The translations under genes and the position numbers were made by a program. Positions 1 through 16,828 of a DNA stretch of 22,385 nt are shown in pieces. The notes beneath the pieces are model-generated. The model saw only the letters and a list, made by a program, of their open reading frames with translations. It was not told where the DNA came from and did not search any database. Numbering within the stretch: the first letter of the stretch is position 1; every line of letters starts with the position of its first letter. Source of the stretch: a virus; the IMG/VR virus record IMGVR_UViG_3300031772_000312, positions 1 through 22,385 of that record. One strand, 5' to 3'.

Positions 1-996
1 TTCAGTCTCGCAGCCCAATGGGTATGGGGAGACGACCTTGAGATTGTTTCGTTTGTTGAGATTGATCCCTACTGCCAGAAGGTGCTTAGGAAGCATTGGC
101 CGAATGTGCCGATTATGGGAGATGTGAGGAATGTCAAAAGGGAAACTCTGGCCGACACCGTCTGCGAATCCTTTCGAAGAAGATCCTATAAGCTGGCACA
201 AGAGAAACGAGAAGATAAAGACGGATCCACGTTATCACGGGAGTTCAGGCATACCCTTAGCAGTGAAAATACGAGAATCGACCTCCTCACCGGAGGTTTC
301 CCCTGCCAGCCTTTTTCCTGTGCCGGGAAGAGAGCAGGAACAGAAGATGACCGCTTTCTCTGGCCTGAGATGCTTAGAGCGATACATGAAGTTAAGCCGA
401 GGTGGATCGTGGCAGAAAACGTTTCTGGAATCCTTAGTCTCGACGAAGGCATGGTATTCGAGTCAGTGTGTTCTTCGCTGGAGGCTGAAGGGTACGAAGT
501 CATCCCGCTTGTTATTCCAGCTTGCGCCATCGGTGCGCCACACAGAAGGGACAGGGTTTGGATTGTTGGGCACTCCACAGAGTTTCGATGCAACGGATTG
601 CCCGTCCGGGGATATACAGGAACGCAAGAAAAAAGGGGGATGCTCAAACCTCAGAGAACAGATTGCCATGCTCCCGACACCGAGGGCAGAGAAGCATTCC
701 CCACAGAGCAGGTCGGATTTCACACCAAACCTTGCAGCCAGAATAGAGATGTTGCCGACTCCTACCGACTCAATGGTGACAATGCAGGATCTGGTTCAGG
801 CAAAGTTCCACAGTTCAAAGAGGCCGAAATACTCCGAAACCCTTGGCAAGAACACTGGTATGAAGTTGCAACCCGCTTTTGTCGAGTGGATGATGGGGTA
901 CGAAACAGGGTGGACAGACTTAAATCGTTAGGAAATGCCATAGTGCCACAGGTGGCAGAGCAAATATTTAGGGCGATAAAGGAGATTGAAGAATGA
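1..996 (+). CDS. DNA (cytosine-5) methyltransferase, 5' end cut by window
   Basis: Transfers a methyl group from SAM to cytosine C5 in DNA; in a phage it most likely protects the genome from host restriction. The frame is open from base 1, so the true start and the first SAM motif lie outside the window. Visible motifs in order: FVEIDPYC (motif II), GDVRNV (motif III), GGFPCQPFSCAG with the catalytic Cys at about residue 102 of the visible 331 (motif IV), AENVSG (motif VI), RRDRVWIVG (motif VIII), and SLGNAIVPQVAEQI (motif X) near the end. The gap between motifs III and IV is about 30 residues longer than usual, and that insert coincides with the N-terminal part of a second long frame (131..931). 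The stop overlaps the next ATG (ATGA). Family assignment is firm; target sequence unknown. Confidence 0.93.
   Translation, partial: FSLAAQWVWGDDLEIVSFVEIDPYCQKVLRKHWPNVPIMGDVRNVKRETLADTVCESFRRRSYKLAQEKREDKDGSTLSREFRHTLSSENTRIDLLTGGFPCQPFSCAGKRAGTEDDRFLWPEMLRAIHEVKPRWIVAENVSGILSLDEGMVFESVCSSLEAEGYEVIPLVIPACAIGAPHRRDRVWIVGHSTEFRCNGLPVRGYTGTQEKRGMLKPQRTDCHAPDTEGREAFPTEQVGFHTKPCSQNRDVADSYRLNGDNAGSGSGKVPQFKEAEILRNPWQEHWYEVATRFCRVDDGVRNRVDRLKSLGNAIVPQVAEQIFRAIKEIEE
131..931 (+). CDS. Overlapping alternate-frame ORF inside the cytosine methyltransferase gene
   Basis: A 266-codon frame lies wholly inside the methyltransferase gene, shifted by one base. Its product looks like a protein and not like translated noise: LWPTPSANP near the start, SWQKTFLESLVSTKAWYSS and LFQLAPSVRHTEGTGFGLL in the middle, two MLPTP repeats, and FVEWMMGYETGWTDLNR at the end. 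From memory, proteins with WPTP repeats, a FLESL-WYS-LxW-LFQLxPS-EGxGFGLL core and an NPxFVEWMMGxPxGWT ending are common beside phage and Bacteroidota C5 methyltransferases. I infer either a real overlapping gene or a conserved dual-frame constraint. The ATG at 131 has GAGG only one base upstream, so its initiation signal is poor; coupling to methyltransferase translation is possible. Function unknown. Confidence 0.55.
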   Translation: MSKGKLWPTPSANPFEEDPISWHKRNEKIKTDPRYHGSSGIPLAVKIRESTSSPEVSPASLFPVPGREQEQKMTAFSGLRCLERYMKLSRGGSWQKTFLESLVSTKAWYSSQCVLRWRLKGTKSSRLLFQLAPSVRHTEGTGFGLLGTPQSFDATDCPSGDIQERKKKGGCSNLREQIAMLPTPRAEKHSPQSRSDFTPNLAARIEMLPTPTDSMVTMQDLVQAKFHSSKRPKYSETLGKNTGMKLQPAFVEWMMGYETGWTDLNR

Positions 997-2708: not shown

Positions 2709-3274
2709 TGCCCAAACTTGAGTTCGACGAAGAGAAACACCTTTACACCTTAGACGGTCGCCGCCTAGTCTCTGTGACGGAATGTCTGCGCCTTGTCGAT
2801 GACCGATGGAAAGCCGAGCCATATTATCTCCTCCGTGGGAAATATGTTCACAAGGCTACGGAACTGTACGACCGGGATGAACTCGATGAATCTACCGTTG
2901 ACCCTATGATCCACCCCTACCTCGACGGCTATGTGAAGTTTAGAGAGGAAACCGGGTTCATTCCAGGTGTAATCGAATATCCACTTCATCATTCGCAATA
3001 TCAATATGCCGGGAAGATCGACAGAACGGGGGATTTGAATGAGACTCACATACTTCTCGACCTCAAGTCCGGAGCCAAGGTTCGCGTTGATGAGCTTCAG
3101 GGAGCGGCGTACTTTGAATTATGCAGGGTGAACAACATCCCCGTAAAGAAAGTGTTCGACCTTTATCTCCATGACGACGGGACTTATAAGTTGGAACCTA
3201 TCGAGAACCCTAAACGATTGCTGCCCTCATTCTTGAACGTGTTGGGGGCATATAGGTGGAGAGAGGGATTGTGA
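2708..3274 (+). CDS. PD-(D/E)XK (RecB/Cas4-like) nuclease
   Basis: 188 residues. Motifs in family order: an N-terminal His in LLRGKYVHKATELY (His about 48), YAGKIDR with the metal-binding Asp at about 105, ILLDLKSGA with the D-x-K pair at about 118-120, and QGAAYFELC matching the Q-x3-Y motif. Together these identify a RecB-type nuclease domain close to phage exonucleases of the PDDEXK_1 group. No helicase or iron-sulphur cysteine cluster is present, so it is not a Cas4 with a full FeS site. The start overlaps the previous stop (TAATG), coupling it to the putative annealing protein. It probably resects double-stranded ends for phage recombination. Confidence 0.82.
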   Translation: MPKLEFDEEKHLYTLDGRRLVSVTECLRLVDDRWKAEPYYLLRGKYVHKATELYDRDELDESTVDPMIHPYLDGYVKFREETGFIPGVIEYPLHHSQYQYAGKIDRTGDLNETHILLDLKSGAKVRVDELQGAAYFELCRVNNIPVKKVFDLYLHDDGTYKLEPIENPKRLLPSFLNVLGAYRWREGL

Positions 3275-3969
3275 AGAAACTGTCTGATTACCTCTTCTAC
3301 CAGGACTCCTGGGCAACCATCTATTGCGGAGACTGCCGAGACATCCTGCCCATGCTTGAGCCGGTGGATTTGGTGCTGACTGACCCGCCGTATGGGATAG
3401 GATTAATGCACAAGGATGGGACAATGGGAGGCACATCAAGAAATATAAAGCGGTGGGCTGGACAAATTAATCCGATTTACCATCCATTCAATGATAATTC
3501 TCCAATTGACCCATCTCCACTTTTACCGATGTCTAAGAATCAAATTATATGGGGAGGGAACTATATTGCCGACAAATTGCCTCCACAAAGGTGCTGGTTG
3601 GTTTGGTATAAACGGGTTAATGGGCAACAAAATTGTTATGGAGATTGTGAATTAGCATGGAGCTCGTTAGATCAGCCCATACGTTTATTTTCTTATCTAT
3701 GGATGGGAATGTTGAGAGACGGCGAACAAGAAGAACATTACCATCCTACTCAAAAACCTGTTTCTTTAATGAAATGGTGCATTTCACTTGTAGAGACATC
3801 ACAAACCATCCTCGACCCCTTCATGGGTTCAGGCACGACCCTTGTGGCTGCGAAGAACCTCAACCGGAAGTCCATAGGCATAGAGATTGAGCCAAAGTAT
3901 TGCGAGATTGCAGTCAAGAGACTTAGGCAGGAAGTGTTTGACTTTAGGTGGAAGGAGAATATCACATGA
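3271..3969 (+). CDS. DNA adenine/cytosine-N methyltransferase (DPPY type, beta-class order)
   Basis: About 232 residues. The catalytic motif TDPPYG (about residues 37-42) comes before the SAM-binding motif FMGSGTTLVAAK near the C terminus. This order is that of beta-class amino methyltransferases; DPPY favours N6-adenine, though N4-cytosine cannot be excluded. HPTQKP precedes the SAM motif, as usual in the family. I chose GTG 3271 because it overlaps the nuclease stop (GTGA) and has GAGAGGGA upstream; a GTG at 3256 is the longer option. It is the second methyltransferase of the window and is likely anti-restrictive. Its central part, about 3400-3790, is visibly more AT-rich than both ends, suggesting exchange of the target-recognition region. 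Confidence 0.88.
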   Translation: MKKLSDYLFYQDSWATIYCGDCRDILPMLEPVDLVLTDPPYGIGLMHKDGTMGGTSRNIKRWAGQINPIYHPFNDNSPIDPSPLLPMSKNQIIWGGNYIADKLPPQRCWLVWYKRVNGQQNCYGDCELAWSSLDQPIRLFSYLWMGMLRDGEQEEHYHPTQKPVSLMKWCISLVETSQTILDPFMGSGTTLVAAKNLNRKSIGIEIEPKYCEIAVKRLRQEVFDFRWKENIT

Positions 3970-5629: not shown

Positions 5630-6322
5630 ATGAAATATATTTGTGTTTCAGGCGGTGCAGATTCAACGGCGATGGCTCTTCTTTTATGGGAACGTGGGGA
5701 AGATTTTGAAATGGTGTTCTCAGACACGGGGGCCGAGCTTCCAGAAACCTATTGGATACTTCCGAGATTATCCCAAAAAACAGGGAGTAAATTGAACGTT
5801 GTAAGTAATGGAAGTTTTTTCCAGAAATTGACTCACCGGGGGTATTTACTGCCATCATTTAATCGAAGGTGGTGTACATCCGATCTTAAAATAGCATCGC
5901 AGGAATATTATTTTGATGCAAATAATATCTTATCTTGTGAAGTTGGAGTGGGGATTGCGGTGGATGAACCAAATCGAATCAGAGACAAATGGTATCCGTT
6001 AGTTGAAGCTAACATGTCTAAATCGGATGCTAAAAAGTTGTGTCAGAAACATGATCTCATTTCACCAGTATATGATTGGAGAACCAGCGTTTCCTGTTTT
6101 TGCTGTCCGTTTCAGCGTAAGCGTGATTGGAAGAATCTCTATAAACATCATCCCATACTCTATGTGGTTGCAGAAGAATGGGAGAAACAGAGCATGGAAA
6201 AATCCAATGGATTTACCTGGAACAAAGGATTCAATTTAAGAGAAATGAGAACTGCTACAAATTCACAGATTGAAATGTGGCCCGAACCAGAGCATGAACC
6301 ATGTTTGATTTGCAATACATGA
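5630..6322 (+). CDS. PP-loop ATPase, PAPS-reductase-like family
   Basis: 230 residues. The PP-loop SGGADST is at residues 7-13, followed by SDTGAELPET (31-40), RRWCTSDLKI (79-88) and GVGIAVDEPNRI. A cysteine cluster (CFCC at about 156-159) and a C-terminal CLIC pair could bind zinc or an iron-sulphur cluster. The family adenylates a substrate with ATP, as in PAPS reductase, DndC and related enzymes. Phage members are common, but their substrate is not known to me. The ATG follows AAGGGAAG. Base composition is clearly more AT-rich than neighbours, and the gene sits exactly where the integrase 3' half should be, which suggests insertion by transfer. Sulphur metabolism, DNA or tRNA modification are all possible. 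Confidence 0.75.
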   Translation: MKYICVSGGADSTAMALLLWERGEDFEMVFSDTGAELPETYWILPRLSQKTGSKLNVVSNGSFFQKLTHRGYLLPSFNRRWCTSDLKIASQEYYFDANNILSCEVGVGIAVDEPNRIRDKWYPLVEANMSKSDAKKLCQKHDLISPVYDWRTSVSCFCCPFQRKRDWKNLYKHHPILYVVAEEWEKQSMEKSNGFTWNKGFNLREMRTATNSQIEMWPEPEHEPCLICNT

Positions 6323-9780: not shown

Positions 9781-9993
9781 GTGAAATGGCATCCACGCTC
9801 TTTTGAGATTATAGGTGTCGGACTTGCCATGTGGATTTTACCCGCCATAGCCGATTTTTTTAAACCCACCCCTCTTCCCATGTATGACAGGCTATGGGTT
9901 ATCGGAATGATGGCTCTCCTTGGCCTCGGATTTGGTTTGTTCTTCTGCCTCATGGCGTCCCTTCTATATACCGGTCTGAAACGAAAGCGGTAA
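9781..9993 (+). CDS. Two-TM membrane protein on the opposite strand (moron candidate)
   Basis: 70 residues from GTG 9781, or 54 from ATG 9829. Two hydrophobic segments are visible: IIGVGLAMWILPAIADFF and a longer LWVIGMMALLGLGFGLFFCL, followed by a basic tail (KRKR), predicting an inner-membrane hairpin. GTG 9781 preserves the first helix but would sit almost exactly at the predicted transcription start, giving a leaderless message; ATG 9829 has AGGTG 11 bases upstream but cuts the helix. It is the only plus-strand gene to the right of the attP. It lies between the gp16-like and tail genes, where P22 carries its immI/superinfection-exclusion region. A role in exclusion is inferred. It overlaps the ejection-gene 3' end by 44 bases. 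Confidence 0.55.
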   Translation: MKWHPRSFEIIGVGLAMWILPAIADFFKPTPLPMYDRLWVIGMMALLGLGFGLFFCLMASLLYTGLKRKR

Positions 9994-12517
9994 ACACAGA
10001 AAAAGATTCAATGAATTTCTTGCTCCCCGGAGGAAGTTGTTTCAACTTCTTCAACTTGTCTATTACTTCCGGTGACGTCAGGGCATCGAGTAGCTTTTTC
10101 TGGCGTCCCGACATCCACATGTCGTTCCACTTTCCAAGAGTCCATTCGACAACCGTGTCTTTCGGAGCCTTCGCTAACTGATAAGCCGTTGTCCCGAGTT
10201 GACCCTCAAGACCTTTGCCGATCTGTTGAAATTGAGCCGTCATGCTCTCCCTGGAGTACCCGACCGCCGCCTTCTGGTAGATCTCCATGAGCTCCCTGAA
10301 GGTCTGCTCTTGAGGCAATCCCTCGAGGGCAGCCTTCATAATCTCGCCCTGCTTGCCTCCATAGAGCCTCTTGTAGAGCTTCCCGGCGGCGTTGACCACA
10401 TGTCCCTCTTCCGTCACCCTAAGCGATTCGAAGACGTCTCTCACATAGGATCCGACCATCTCATTCCAGAGGTCCGGGTCCTTCTTCTGAATAACAGTCT
10501 TGGCCCTTCGGAGGAGCTCAGGGTCTGGCATGTTTGAGACGTCAAGAACCTTGTGGATAGCTCCGGCTATCGTCTTGTCGGCCTTCATCCGGGTCAGCTC
10601 CCCAATGACAGAGGATTTCAGTCTGTCGATCGGAGGGCTCATCTTTTCATAGAGCTTGTTGGCTTTGGCAAACTCTGGAGATACCTTCTCGATGGACGCC
10701 AGCAATTCCTTCTTGAGCATTTCAAGGTCACGGTTCAAAACCTTCTTGGAGGACGGCGCTATATGGGCGGCCTCCTGGCTCGTCCCTTCAATGAGGTCGT
10801 TCAGGTCGAAGATGGCCTTTTGGATCTTACGGAGGTCACGCTCGGCAACAAACTCAGCCCCCTCTTTACCAGCTATCGGAACTTCTTCACCAATACCTTT
10901 CCCCATTTCACCAAAGTATTCATAAAGCTCTTTTTCGGCCTTTGTTTTAGGTCCCTTCGTCATTTGGCTTTCAAGCATTTCAGCCGCATCGTCAATAGTT
11001 CCCTGAAATCCTTCAGCCTTCAATTCCTGGAAGAGCTCGTCAAAAGTGTATCCTCTCCCTGAGTCAACCTTTGCAAAAGGCCACGTCTTATCAACCCCAG
11101 CCGCCCCCTCCCTTTTCTGAAGGGCTGTCATATCAATCCCAGGAGATTCAATTTTGCCTGTTTTTATGTTTCGAGTAGTAGCAATCTTGCCATGCTCTGA
11201 AACCCATTTCCTAATGTCAAAAACGCCGGACGATGGTTCATTGATGCTAAGACCCTTGGATCCCATTTTAGGAATAGGAGCCCCTTCCATTTCTTCAAGC
11301 GGTTTCTCTTTCATCGTCTGAAGGGACTTCTTGACTCCTTGGAGAGCCTTCTTACCCGGACCTTCCGGATAGCTCTTGATCATGGTGTCAAGGCGCTCCA
11401 GTGCCGGCTTTAATTCCACCCCTCCCGCGGCCTCAGCCTGTACCGCTGCCTTTTCATACTTTGGCCCCACCATCTTCGTTCGGGTTGCTTCTGCCTTGTC
11501 TATGATCCCCGTGGCCGTTTTCTCCAACTTCTCACCCAGGGCAGTCGGCGTTTCCTTGTAGCCCCCCATCTCCCGTATGAACTTCTGGATCGATTCTTCG
11601 GTAGCCCCCTGTTGGGCATCTTCAAACGCCTTGATAGGGTCAGAGGTAAGAGGATGGTTTCTCAGGTACTTCCAGGTGTTCAAAATGCTCTGTTTATCGT
11701 AAAGCTGATGAGGTCCGAGCTCTATCCCATGCTTCTGAGCCAGGGCCTTCAACATGAGGGCTTTGGCGTGATCCTCTGTGGTCAAAACGGCCTCTTTAGC
11801 TCCTATCCCTGCCTTTGCTACCACTCCAGCCCTCCGAGACAGGAAACGGTTGAAGACAGACGATACCAATTTCCCGGACATCTCTCCGCCGAGGGCGAAA
11901 ACGCCTTCCATCGCAATGTCTGTGAGGTCACTCCACGGTTCAATCTTCTCCCCAAAAACTGTCTTGCCGACTCCCTTTCGGATAACCTCCCCGATCATGG
12001 CACCGCCAACCGCTCCCGGGACACCACCCACAGCCGCGCCCGCCGTTCCAAGATAGGTTGATGGATGACCGGCAACCTGGGCTGCTAAACCTTTAAACTT
12101 TGATTCTTTAGCTTCTCCAACCTCTCTGTTCCAGTTTCCTTCCTTGTCTTTGAACTCGATCTGGCCACCCTTGCTTACCCGGTATCGAGACGGAATTTCA
12201 TCTGTAGCTACCCCCCTTGACGCTGCAAAGGCCTTAATCTTCCCCCAAGGTGTATCGGCATAGGTCGCCTTCATTTGAGCCCCAAAAGAGGCTTCAGGCT
12301 CCTTTCCAGGGTAGTATTCCATTATTGGCTTTCCAGTGATAGCGGATGTGCCGGACGTCCCCCCAGGAGTGAACTTCCGGGGAACATAGGTCCCTCCAAT
12401 AGGAGGCTCCTGTCCTCCTTGGGTATCACCTTTGAGCAGTTCATCAACCCAGTTTATCCCTTTGGGAGTAGCCTCTTCGGGTTCCTTTTTTAAAAGTTCA
12501 GCAAAGTAATCCGTCAT
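9950..12517 (-). CDS. Large DNA ejection protein (P22 gp16-like position)
   Basis: 855 residues, long and mostly helical. A Gly/Ala-rich stretch at about 149-178 (STYLGTAGAAVGGVPGAVGG) could insert in a membrane, as expected for a protein delivered from the virion to form the DNA path. Long charged helical regions follow, with several Lys/Glu-rich repeats. It is the third of three consecutive ejection-type genes after gp7-like and gp20-like, so its place corresponds to P22 gene 16 (609 residues there). No lytic transglycosylase or other enzyme motif is obvious. It starts in an ATGA overlap with the upstream gene. Role by context and composition; direct similarity to gp16 is not evident. Confidence 0.72.
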   Translation of the reverse strand: MTDYFAELLKKEPEEATPKGINWVDELLKGDTQGGQEPPIGGTYVPRKFTPGGTSGTSAITGKPIMEYYPGKEPEASFGAQMKATYADTPWGKIKAFAASRGVATDEIPSRYRVSKGGQIEFKDKEGNWNREVGEAKESKFKGLAAQVAGHPSTYLGTAGAAVGGVPGAVGGAMIGEVIRKGVGKTVFGEKIEPWSDLTDIAMEGVFALGGEMSGKLVSSVFNRFLSRRAGVVAKAGIGAKEAVLTTEDHAKALMLKALAQKHGIELGPHQLYDKQSILNTWKYLRNHPLTSDPIKAFEDAQQGATEESIQKFIREMGGYKETPTALGEKLEKTATGIIDKAEATRTKMVGPKYEKAAVQAEAAGGVELKPALERLDTMIKSYPEGPGKKALQGVKKSLQTMKEKPLEEMEGAPIPKMGSKGLSINEPSSGVFDIRKWVSEHGKIATTRNIKTGKIESPGIDMTALQKREGAAGVDKTWPFAKVDSGRGYTFDELFQELKAEGFQGTIDDAAEMLESQMTKGPKTKAEKELYEYFGEMGKGIGEEVPIAGKEGAEFVAERDLRKIQKAIFDLNDLIEGTSQEAAHIAPSSKKVLNRDLEMLKKELLASIEKVSPEFAKANKLYEKMSPPIDRLKSSVIGELTRMKADKTIAGAIHKVLDVSNMPDPELLRRAKTVIQKKDPDLWNEMVGSYVRDVFESLRVTEEGHVVNAAGKLYKRLYGGKQGEIMKAALEGLPQEQTFRELMEIYQKAAVGYSRESMTAQFQQIGKGLEGQLGTTAYQLAKAPKDTVVEWTLGKWNDMWMSGRQKKLLDALTSPEVIDKLKKLKQLPPGSKKFIESFSVFTAFVSDRYIEGTP

Positions 12518-13854
12518 AATCCAAATTCCTTTTGAAGCCTTAGCTTAACCGTGCCCTTCAACTGATTGGGGGTTAGTTTGCTATCCTTCAACTCGGTTTC
12601 AATGTCCTTCCCACGTTCCTGGATAACATCCTGCATTGACCCGAGAGGGATAGCCGAATCTCTGTTGATAAGATCCTTTGCCTGGTCATCGGTCATCCCT
12701 TTTGTCAAGTACCATTGATATCGGGCTATCGCCATCTTGGTTGACATGATCACATCGTCGAGTTTTGCCTTGAAACTTATAGGATCATCCCCACTGTACC
12801 AGTGTTCTCCAGGGTCGGGTTGAGCCTGCCTGATACGGTTAGCCTCCAACTCTGACATCTGAGCTCCGGTGATCTCCTTGATGTACATATTGATGTTTTC
12901 AATCGATTTGCGCTTATACTTCGAGAAATCCGTCAAAAATGTTTGCTGTTCAGGTGGGACATCCTTTCCGAGGCCTGCCTTGATCCCTGTCCATGCTGCA
13001 CTTAGGCGGGGACCTAATTGTTGATACTCGGGTTTGAAGTCTCTCTCGATCAAATCAAGACGTGAAAGTTGTTCTCTTGAGTTGAAGAGTTTTGTCTGTA
13101 CGGAGGTCTTTGTGGTAGGAGTCATTCCACCTCCACCGGCCCCGAGCGGTCCTTGGGTGATTTCAACAAGTTTTCCGTTTTCATCAAACTTCATTTTTAA
13201 ACCGTTCCCAGCGAACTTCTGCTCATATACCTTACGCATTGGGTCGCCAGACGGGAGAGCGTTGTATTCCCCTATCATCTTCCCCAGTTCGGTCTTGGAC
13301 ACTTCCTTGGGTTGCGTTAGCTTCTGCTCTTCAATGTCGAGTTCTCTTTCTCTAAGGCCAATCTCTCTTTCCTTCTGTCCCAACTTCGCTTTCTCAATCG
13401 GAGCGATAGCCCCACTCTTGACCCTGTTTTGCCACACACGAAAAGCATAGTTATTGAACTCTGGATCGTCACTCTTGAAATAATCAGCCTTCGGTAGCCA
13501 CTGTTCCGGGATCTTGTTCACCTTAATAAGATGATCCCGTGATTGCTCATAATTATCAGGGTCTAGCCAGTCCGCAACAATCGAAAGGTATTGCCGTTTT
13601 TTCATATCTGTTTCAATGGGCCTCATCTCTTGTTCTTGAGCCCACGCTTCTTTCTCTTGAGCGGCCCTTTCTTTCTGAAGGCCAAATTTTTCAACCTCCA
13701 TCTCCCTGGACTTCCGAAGCCAGTTTTGATTCTCCGGCCTGTATTGAAGTTCTTGACGGAGCCCCTGGTTAACCAAGGCGTTCCTCTCGGTTTCAAAGAG
13801 GTTCCATGCCGGAACTCTGGTAGAACCCTGCGCGATTAGTTCATTTATTCCCAT
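12514..13854 (-). CDS. Ejection/internal virion protein (P22 gp20-like position)
   Basis: 446 residues, similar in length to P22 gp20 (471). Coiled-coil-prone segments at about 45-80 and 150-180 are followed by a Gly-rich hinge (GAGGGG). A conserved-looking C-terminal domain at about 312-386 contains NINMYIKEITGAQMSELEAN, then a PDPGEHWYSGDDP turn and FKAKLDDVIMSTKMAIARYQ. I recall this tail as shared by many phage injection proteins. AAGGAGGT with a six-base spacer precedes the ATG. It would be packed in the virion and released with the DNA. Confidence 0.8.
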   Translation of the reverse strand: MGINELIAQGSTRVPAWNLFETERNALVNQGLRQELQYRPENQNWLRKSREMEVEKFGLQKERAAQEKEAWAQEQEMRPIETDMKKRQYLSIVADWLDPDNYEQSRDHLIKVNKIPEQWLPKADYFKSDDPEFNNYAFRVWQNRVKSGAIAPIEKAKLGQKEREIGLRERELDIEEQKLTQPKEVSKTELGKMIGEYNALPSGDPMRKVYEQKFAGNGLKMKFDENGKLVEITQGPLGAGGGGMTPTTKTSVQTKLFNSREQLSRLDLIERDFKPEYQQLGPRLSAAWTGIKAGLGKDVPPEQQTFLTDFSKYKRKSIENINMYIKEITGAQMSELEANRIRQAQPDPGEHWYSGDDPISFKAKLDDVIMSTKMAIARYQWYLTKGMTDDQAKDLINRDSAIPLGSMQDVIQERGKDIETELKDSKLTPNQLKGTVKLRLQKEFGL

Positions 13855-15044: not shown

Positions 15045-15311
15045 TTATCCTCCCCCTCCATTTTCTTCTAAAATTTTAGCCGCTTCCAGGGCCGCCAGAA
15101 TTGTATTGATCTTTAACGCCAAAGCGTCCCCCAATGCATAAATAGCAGCATCCACTTCAGCCCAACTTGAGACCGAATGATCAGGTGTAGAGGTGTCCGG
15201 AATGTGAGGTTGTATCTCAGCGACCATCTTCCCCACTTCACGAAACCATGCATCCCATACCATACTGGCTCTGTCTTTATCTCTCAATGGAGGATCAGGA
15301 AGTTTGCTCAT
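15045..15311 (-). CDS. Small virion-operon protein
   Basis: 88 residues. An N-terminal DPPLRDKDRASMVWDAWF pattern leads to a C-terminal helix (INTILAALEAAKILEENGGGG). Similar short proteins with an INxIIxALExAG helix are, as I recall, common next to gp10-type genes. It starts in an ATGA overlap with the gp10-like stop. It could be a tail needle substitute, a fibre chaperone or a small decoration protein; there is no direct evidence for any of these. Confidence 0.65.
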   Translation of the reverse strand: MSKLPDPPLRDKDRASMVWDAWFREVGKMVAEIQPHIPDTSTPDHSVSSWAEVDAAIYALGDALALKINTILAALEAAKILEENGGGG

Positions 15312-16828
15312 GCTGCCCCCGCATTCGCCTCAAGATAGGCTCCAAGAATAACCACCTTGACCGGATCGGAGATCGTCACTTTATAAATCCTATCCCTCGA
15401 TGATCCGAGTCTTCGCCAGATTGCCCTCGTCTTGTATTTTCCTATGACTCCGATATCCGTCCAGTGTTCATTACTCCAAGTGTGGCCGCCATCGTCAGAC
15501 CATTGGAGCATGGCCTGGGGATCGTCGCCGCTGTCAATATCAGGGTGATCAACGGCAAGACCCATGCCACCCTCAAACTCCACTTCAAGAGATGAATGAA
15601 AGACGACCTTTCTGTCCGCTCGAACGGCCTGAGCTGCCCGAATCCTTCTGAGCTCAACCCCGTCGTCGTCATACGTGGAGAGATCGTATTTGTAGAGTTT
15701 CCCGGATCCGTAGTCCCCAACAATGTGCATCCCCTCAAAGTATGAGTAACAGTTCGCCGGATGACGGAGATCAAAGGGGCCTGATGCCCTTGTGTGCCAT
15801 ACGCCTGTCACGAAATCATATGAAAATGTTTTATTGCAAGAAGGAAAAGTTAGAACGTAAAATGTGTGCCCTTCCTGCGAGTAGATGAATCCTATCGCAT
15901 CCGTGACGGTATCGAGTTGAGAAATCTGATAGTCAATCTGCTCCGTTGAAATCTTTTGTGTCTGGTAGGCACTTGAGCCCTGTACCTGCCTGAAGTTATC
16001 GAGCCAGGCGACGGTCCCCTGGTATTCAGCCACCGACTTCGGGGCGATGCAACCAAGGCGATTCGTGGCGCCCGGAACCCGTTCGAATGGAAAAGTCGCA
16101 TCCCCGGAGTTGTACCAAACCTCATAGGATTCCTTCCCGAGGAGCCAAAGTTCTCTATGGGCTGAAATCACTACCTGAAGGTTGTCAGGATAGGCCTCAG
16201 CCGTGGCATAGTCCAGGGCGTCCCAAGCAGTCCCATCATAAGAGCCCGAGATGTAGAATCGACCTGTATCCTTCGAAGACACGATGAAATACCCGTCCTG
16301 ATAGGTAAGAGAGGAAGGTGTTGGAAAGTCTGTGTCTGTGATCTGGGAAAGGGTCGTCCCCGACATAATATACCCATACGTCCCGTCAACGATCATCAAC
16401 TGAGTTCCGTTGTCCTCCATCCACACTGGGCCGGTGGAGGTAAATAACCCACCTCTCATCACCGTCATTCTTCCACTTGTATCCACTCGATAGAGAGTGC
16501 TTCCGATCACGGCATAGAGATATGACCCCATGACGTGAAGGCCCCTGGTCTCTGCTGAGATGGGAAGGTCAGCGGAAGGTGTCACGTCTACACTGTGGGT
16601 TGTGCCATTTTTATGATTACCCGTGACTGAACCGGCAAAAGAGAGTTTCCCTGTTACTGTGTGCTCAGGTAGAGTAGGAGTGCAGAAAAATGATAGTCCA
16701 GGCGTCCCGACAAGACTCAGCGCCTTCCCTCCCTGCTTGTCTACAATCGGGAACAGATTCTGACAGATCTGAGCATTGATGTTTGTCGAGGAACCTTTGT
16801 AGGCCCCACCGACGAACGGGATCTCCAT
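15308..16828 (-). CDS. Packaged DNA stabilization protein (P22 gp10-like)
   Basis: 506 residues (P22 gp10: 472). The N terminus (EIPFVGGAYKGSSTNINAQI then CQNLFPI) is followed by repeated beta-propeller-like blades and a family C-terminal signature: LQWSDDGGHTWSNEHW, then a short loop and KTRAIWRRLGSSRDRIYKVT. In P22, gp10 caps gp4 and closes the portal channel after packaging, before the needle. It is separated here from the gp4-like gene by about 4.4 kb, whereas they are adjacent in P22. TAATG overlap with a tiny upstream peptide gene suggests coupled translation. Confidence 0.9.
   Translation of the reverse strand: MEIPFVGGAYKGSSTNINAQICQNLFPIVDKQGGKALSLVGTPGLSFFCTPTLPEHTVTGKLSFAGSVTGNHKNGTTHSVDVTPSADLPISAETRGLHVMGSYLYAVIGSTLYRVDTSGRMTVMRGGLFTSTGPVWMEDNGTQLMIVDGTYGYIMSGTTLSQITDTDFPTPSSLTYQDGYFIVSSKDTGRFYISGSYDGTAWDALDYATAEAYPDNLQVVISAHRELWLLGKESYEVWYNSGDATFPFERVPGATNRLGCIAPKSVAEYQGTVAWLDNFRQVQGSSAYQTQKISTEQIDYQISQLDTVTDAIGFIYSQEGHTFYVLTFPSCNKTFSYDFVTGVWHTRASGPFDLRHPANCYSYFEGMHIVGDYGSGKLYKYDLSTYDDDGVELRRIRAAQAVRADRKVVFHSSLEVEFEGGMGLAVDHPDIDSGDDPQAMLQWSDDGGHTWSNEHWTDIGVIGKYKTRAIWRRLGSSRDRIYKVTISDPVKVVILGAYLEANAGAA

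Follow-up and report, generated by a model that had tools for sequence, protein, structure and literature searches.

The virus record IMGVR_UViG_3300031772_000312 (positions 1 to 22,385; the whole stretch of 22,385 bases is referred to here as the window) opens with a C5 cytosine methyltransferase gene that most likely encodes, in two overlapping frames, both polypeptides of one split enzyme. The frame 0 product is referred to as alpha and the product of an open reading frame (ORF) nested in the +1 frame as beta. Alpha would constitute the catalytic part, with motifs I–VIII and X, while beta, translated from an internal start at position 131, would bring motif IX and probably the part that recognizes the DNA target. 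The complementarity of the two frames, their constant linkage and the precedent of the two-polypeptide enzyme M.EcoHK31I suggest that alpha and beta assemble into one enzyme, in which both would be needed. Its presence in phages suggests that this enzyme would methylate phage DNA, most likely against host restriction.

Alpha (1–996) matched PF00145 in Pfam (E = 7e-41) and dcm TIGR00675 in NCBIfam. Its 5' end lies beyond the window edge together with most of motif I, the S-adenosylmethionine binding motif seen in complete alpha homologues as LFSGIGG. Motifs IV (PCQ), VI (ENV), VIII (QRR-type) and X were located in that order by the PF00145 match and motif positions, in agreement with an initial annotation of the window that had read these four motifs in the main frame. 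That annotation had also proposed a protein-like +1 ORF of 266 codons within the gene, which was recovered exactly at 131–931 with its WPTP/MLPTP blocks, its WYSS...LFQLAPS...EGTGFGLL core and its C-terminal end FVEWMMGYETGWTDLNR. LPTP-like blocks of beta begin at positions 149, 566, 671 and 752. The features of the locus are as follows.

1–996, plus strand: alpha, C5 cytosine methyltransferase (PF00145, dcm TIGR00675, alignment to M.HhaI, motif landmarks)
118–121, plus strand: Shine-Dalgarno-like GGAG, 9 bases 5' of the beta ATG at 131–133 (sequence; enrichment across loci)
131–931, plus strand: beta, nested ORF in the +1 frame of alpha, 266 codons and stop, phrog_1008 family (permutation and phase tests)
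149–263, plus strand: N-terminal LPTP block of beta, WPTPSANPFEEDP...SGIPLAVKI (related block 3' of motif VIII in locus L005)
275–565, plus strand: dual-constrained core, alpha motifs IV–VIII over the beta helices and the WYSS...LFQLAPS hairpin at 452–532 (mismatch phase, model, landmarks)
292–318, plus strand: alpha motif IV (landmark positions)
412–423, plus strand: alpha motif VI (landmark positions)
541–567, plus strand: alpha motif VIII (landmark positions)
566–670, plus strand: beta block C1, GTPQSFDATD...NLREQIAM (landmarks; block families)
671–751, plus strand: beta block C2, LPTPRAEKHSPQSRSDFTPNLAARIEM (mismatch phase against L005)
752–865, plus strand: beta block C3, LPTPTDSMVTMQDLVQAKFHSSKRPKYSE..., and linker to motif IX (mismatch phase against locus L004)
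866–922, plus strand: motif IX in the beta frame, LQPAFVEWMMGYETGWTDL, with the FVEWMMGY end (alignment of locus L082 to M.HhaI, all-frame scan, beta-frame constraint)
916–957, plus strand: alpha motif X, RLKSLGNAIVPQVA, extending past the beta stop (landmarks; alpha-frame constraint 3' of the beta stop)

Selection on the nested frame

Synonymous permutation of the methyltransferase codons produced a +1 ORF as long as that of the window in 1 of 5000 trials (mean 100, standard deviation 28 codons), whereas the +2 frame of the window was unexceptional, its length being reached in 278 of 5000 permutations. A similar pattern was observed in viral loci that were retrieved with methyltransferase peptides, that is without use of the nested frame. 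There the longest +1 ORF had a median of 233 codons versus 104 expected, and the longest +2 ORF 56 versus 54 codons. In relatives retrieved with beta, the +1 frame was usually open for 200–400 codons. The nested frame therefore remains open in relatives, one of three checks that the initial annotation had put forward; another, depletion of substitutions in the nested frame across homologues, was evaluated from mismatch phase and was likewise borne out.

In this test, genes of 130 loci were aligned as DNA with no frame assumed and mismatches were tallied by codon position. Positions 1, 2 and 3 of beta correspond to positions 2, 3 and 1 of alpha, so that alpha position 1 is the wobble base of beta, and the ratio of mismatches at alpha position 3 to those at position 1 was calculated with 95% bootstrap ranges over loci. 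Upstream of beta the ratio was 3.05 (2.84–3.29) and downstream of it 3.50 (3.06–3.95), alpha position 3 being the most variable. Within the core, which spans motifs IV–VIII, it fell to 1.59 (1.53–1.66), indicating constraint on both frames. The phase was reversed in the LPTP blocks (0.60, 0.50–0.69), where alpha position 1 was the most variable, and in the motif IX part (0.49, 0.43–0.56); conservation thus follows the nested frame both in the LPTP blocks and at the FVEWMMGY end. Bootstrap ranges inside and outside the overlap did not overlap between regions, and the reversal was replicated in three sets, namely viral loci retrieved via beta, viral loci retrieved via the methyltransferase and cellular genomes. 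Alpha four-fold sites had diverged at 8–10% in the motif IX part versus 56–68% outside.

The window's own blocks carried the same signature, with mismatches at beta positions 3/1/2 numbering 12/2/5 for the N-terminal block against L005, 13/3/3 for C2 against L005 and 11/3/0 for C3 against L004. Beta is under coding selection, and the earlier proposal that both frames are selected and shape each other agrees with the mismatch phase of blocks and core.

Strong indirect evidence from the start region also indicates that beta is translated from its own start. In 148 loci the median distance from the last in-frame stop to the first beta ATG was 5 codons. Shine-Dalgarno matches of 4 or more bases preceded this ATG in 55% of loci, of 5 or more in 36% and of 6 or more in 17%; the corresponding values for ATGs in that region in the two remaining frames were 12, 3 and 1%. 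A second beta-frame ATG is found at 347–349 of the window (KMTAFSG) with AGGA 7 bases upstream, and its counterpart in many relatives has GAGG 8 bases 5' of the same Met. This ATG might serve beta as an alternative start, or it might only reflect the residues conserved at that place.

Motif IX and alternative readings of the overlap

The initial annotation did not mention that the methyltransferase frame is without motif IX and that the nested frame has it. The nested end, LxPxFVEWMMGYPxGWTDL, resembles motif IX of C5 methyltransferases. In L082, RLNPEFVEWMMGYPIGWT is in frame with motif X, and phmmer aligned this stretch to M.HhaI 273–315, KLHPRECARVMGYPDSY...FGNSVV. In most loci an all-frame scan located motif IX in the +1 frame and none in alpha frame 0. 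The pattern of motif IX in +1 only, with X in frame 0, was present in 64 of the 75 loci that had been retrieved with beta. It was also present in 32 of 40 loci of a second, non-redundant group, which comprised loci fetched via the methyltransferase and five plasmid loci found via beta. The remaining loci were mostly truncated records, pattern misses or frame-swapped copies. The spacing between alpha motifs VIII and X was as low as 48–62 residues in some loci. Judged from the +1 location of the motif IX pattern and from this short spacing, motif IX is missing from alpha and is supplied by the nested frame.

Several observations weigh against assigning beta to a split enzyme. The alignment of L082 with M.HhaI in motif IX is a weak second domain of 5 bits, whose weight comes from its position after a strong first one. 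A few loci (L082, L125, L126 and L131) have motif IX in frame 0 or a shifted arrangement. A profile search of the PDB with beta returned no C5 methyltransferase, and beta profile searches of Pfam, NCBIfam and the PDB gave no meaningful match. Modelled alone with AlphaFold, beta reached a predicted local distance difference test score (pLDDT) of 60, with helices at residues 67–88 and 94–104, a hairpin at 115–133 and a motif IX helix at 248–255 scoring about 90; this model had no match to a solved fold (best Foldseek E 0.9), which at pLDDT 60 means little. A chimera of alpha up to motif VIII followed by a beta block and motif IX gave a well modelled catalytic domain (Z 19 to M.HaeIII), and in neither the model of beta alone nor that of the chimera were the blocks and their docking confidently modelled. 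The predictions thus neither support nor refute docking.

Two of these arrangements deserve separate description. In L082 (2134–3048) motif IX is in frame with X, yet LPTP-like blocks are still in the +1 frame, and this locus is possibly an intermediate between one-chain and two-chain forms. In L125, L126 and L131 an insertion or deletion has brought either motif IX or the LPTP blocks in frame with alpha; these copies may be natural frame swaps, decayed genes or sequence errors.

The initial annotation had suggested that the nested protein regulates the methyltransferase or acts on its own, and had referred to related proteins encoded as separate genes beside phage methyltransferases. Beta does have a conserved core and blocks of its own, the latter with no assigned function, which would suit an inhibitor or a separate anti-restriction factor whose overlap with alpha is incidental. 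No separate gene of this kind was found beside methyltransferases: relatives retrieved via the nested protein had their best match at phase +1 in 78 of 80 viral loci (exceptions L082 and L083), and a genome scan with the pattern [FW]VEW[ML]MG[YF] placed beta at +1 within a methyltransferase gene in 78 of the 80 best cellular loci. Searches of viral contigs, phages, plasmids and genomes likewise yielded no stand-alone beta clearly free of alpha. Since beta carries the motif IX that alpha is without, and since none was found alone, an independent or regulatory role is unlikely; the earlier reading is probably wrong and a nested second subunit is most likely. The annotation had further counted a lack of matching proteins outside methyltransferase genes against the nested frame. 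None was found in these searches, which speaks for a subunit and not for a non-coding frame.

Programmed +1 frameshifting, in which ribosomes slipping near motif VIII would fuse the N-terminal part of alpha to the beta blocks and motif IX and so make a second form of the enzyme, is consistent with the constant +1 phase and with the frame 0 position of motif IX or blocks after the insertions or deletions in L125, L126 and L131. We consider it improbable nonetheless, since beta reaches upstream through motifs IV–VIII and is constrained there as well (1.59 versus 3.05), since it has an ATG of its own with Shine-Dalgarno enrichment and since the slipped product would be without motif X. A chance or by-product ORF, untranslated and open only through methyltransferase codon usage or conserved motifs, was rejected as very improbable: alpha motifs such as FPCQPFS do dictate part of the nested core and overlapping DNA always gives some likeness in other frames, but the permutation test, the reversed mismatch phase in three sets and in the window's own blocks, the start-site enrichment and the lack of a comparable open-length excess in the +2 frame contradict it.

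LPTP blocks and comparison with known enzymes

The number of LPTP-like blocks downstream of the core ranged from 1 to 7 among beta proteins; a simple pattern also placed at least one upstream of it in 53 of 129. Clustering placed 286 of 385 blocks in 33 clusters of at least 3, the members of which occupied differing positions between loci; the largest of these clusters probably combines several block types that have a PTPTAxD head in common. Among close block pairs, 92 were at different positions and 20 paired an N-terminal with a C-terminal block. The relative of the window's N-terminal block, for instance, sits after motif VIII in L005. Protein identity of blocks was 0.70 in the beta frame and 0.36 in the alpha frame, values that are biased as pairs were picked by beta similarity, and the claim of block conservation is therefore based on nucleotide alignments instead. 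The blocks are common to different loci and reshuffled, in the beta frame.

The initial annotation had pointed out an extra segment of alpha between motifs III and IV and an overlap of its variable target-recognition region with the shifted frame, and both indeed coincide with nested-frame blocks. The III–IV segment is explained by the N-terminal LPTP block of beta, which alpha has to carry with it. The blocks occupy the place of recognition domains, and multispecific phage C5 enzymes offer an analogy; on both grounds the blocks are probably exchangeable target-recognition modules. They would then pick the DNA targets, and one enzyme may have several. A wider proposal, which we advance tentatively, is that the LPTP blocks form a common vocabulary of modules, one target each, written in the frame that overlaps the catalytic subunit. 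By exchanging blocks of ~100 bases, phages and their hosts would build C5 methyltransferases with several specificities. Any sequence imposed by the shifted frame would be tolerated by alpha, including an insertion that separates motifs III and IV.

Multispecific phage methyltransferases of the SP-beta and phi3T type have several exchangeable recognition modules of ~40 residues between motifs VIII and IX. The present blocks, which lie in the recognition region and are reshuffled, may correspond to these modules. The phage enzymes are single polypeptides read in one frame, whereas the present blocks, with their putative module role, belong to a shifted frame. C5 methyltransferases of two polypeptides include M.EcoHK31I (target YGGCCR), M.EaeI, which is of the same kind, and M.AquI (target CYCGRG). 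In M.EcoHK31I the gene for the large subunit also encodes the small one, in a different frame, a layout that the location of beta in an overlapping frame of the alpha gene resembles.

The large subunit of M.EcoHK31I carries motifs I–VIII and X and the small subunit motif IX, and in M.AquI the catalytic motifs and motif IX are likewise on two polypeptides (PMC3404938). Alpha and beta would divide the motifs as M.EcoHK31I does, the comparison being one of descriptions rather than of sequences, and would share with M.AquI the distribution of catalytic motifs and motif IX over two chains. The recognition domain of M.EcoHK31I was predicted in its large subunit, whereas here it is in the beta frame that the LPTP blocks of the recognition region show conservation; these blocks are reshuffled and can also precede the core. 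M.AquI differs in being split at a single point, its small protein not being nested through motifs IV–VIII. The two-subunit principle is thus already known, if obscure. In the literature searchable here, no description was found of a subunit role or frame-specific selection for the phrog_1008 family, nor of a modular, reshuffled form in an overlapping frame with so wide a spread, and literature on overlapping methyltransferase genes contained nothing on the beta family.

Distribution, annotation and genomic surroundings

Record titles from the genome scan placed beta in Bacillota, Bacteroidota, Proteobacteria, Acidobacteria, Dehalococcoidales, candidate phyla and others, and an archaeal plasmid (Methanomethylovorans) also carries it. 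All 74 beta proteins tested matched phrog_1008, a family named only 'DNA methyltransferase'. In Paenibacillus phage Redbud the nested ORF, a member of the same family, is already annotated as a gene, 'g50 internal gene', and the labels given to such ORFs are only 'DNA methyltransferase' or 'hypothetical protein'. In two plasmid annotations it is alpha that was missed, fragments only being present.

An ORF that is often unannotated or misnamed thus becomes a probable subunit, and for many phage and bacterial C5 methyltransferases the annotation is likely to omit part of the enzyme. Such enzymes would seem inactive if alpha were expressed by itself or if a codon-optimised gene were used. The loci also provide a large natural set for studying the evolution of two proteins in one stretch of DNA, including a region dominated by the inner frame, and if the blocks are recognition modules, a code relating sequence to target becomes directly testable.

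Five identical copies of the alpha/beta gene (L152–L156) were found in one chromosome assembly of an uncultured Roseovarius and may represent a multicopy element or an assembly artefact. Downstream in the window, a second DNA methyltransferase (phrog_67) is encoded at 3256–3969 and a phosphoadenosine phosphosulfate reductase (phrog_424) at 5630–6322; in Bacteroides phage BKO1-TP3 and phage C72C1, too, such a reductase is encoded 3' of the alpha/beta gene. Two long phage proteins with no PHROG match, of 855 and 446 residues, are encoded on the minus strand at 9950–12517 and 12514–13854, near a head-closure protein (phrog_578) at 15308–16828.
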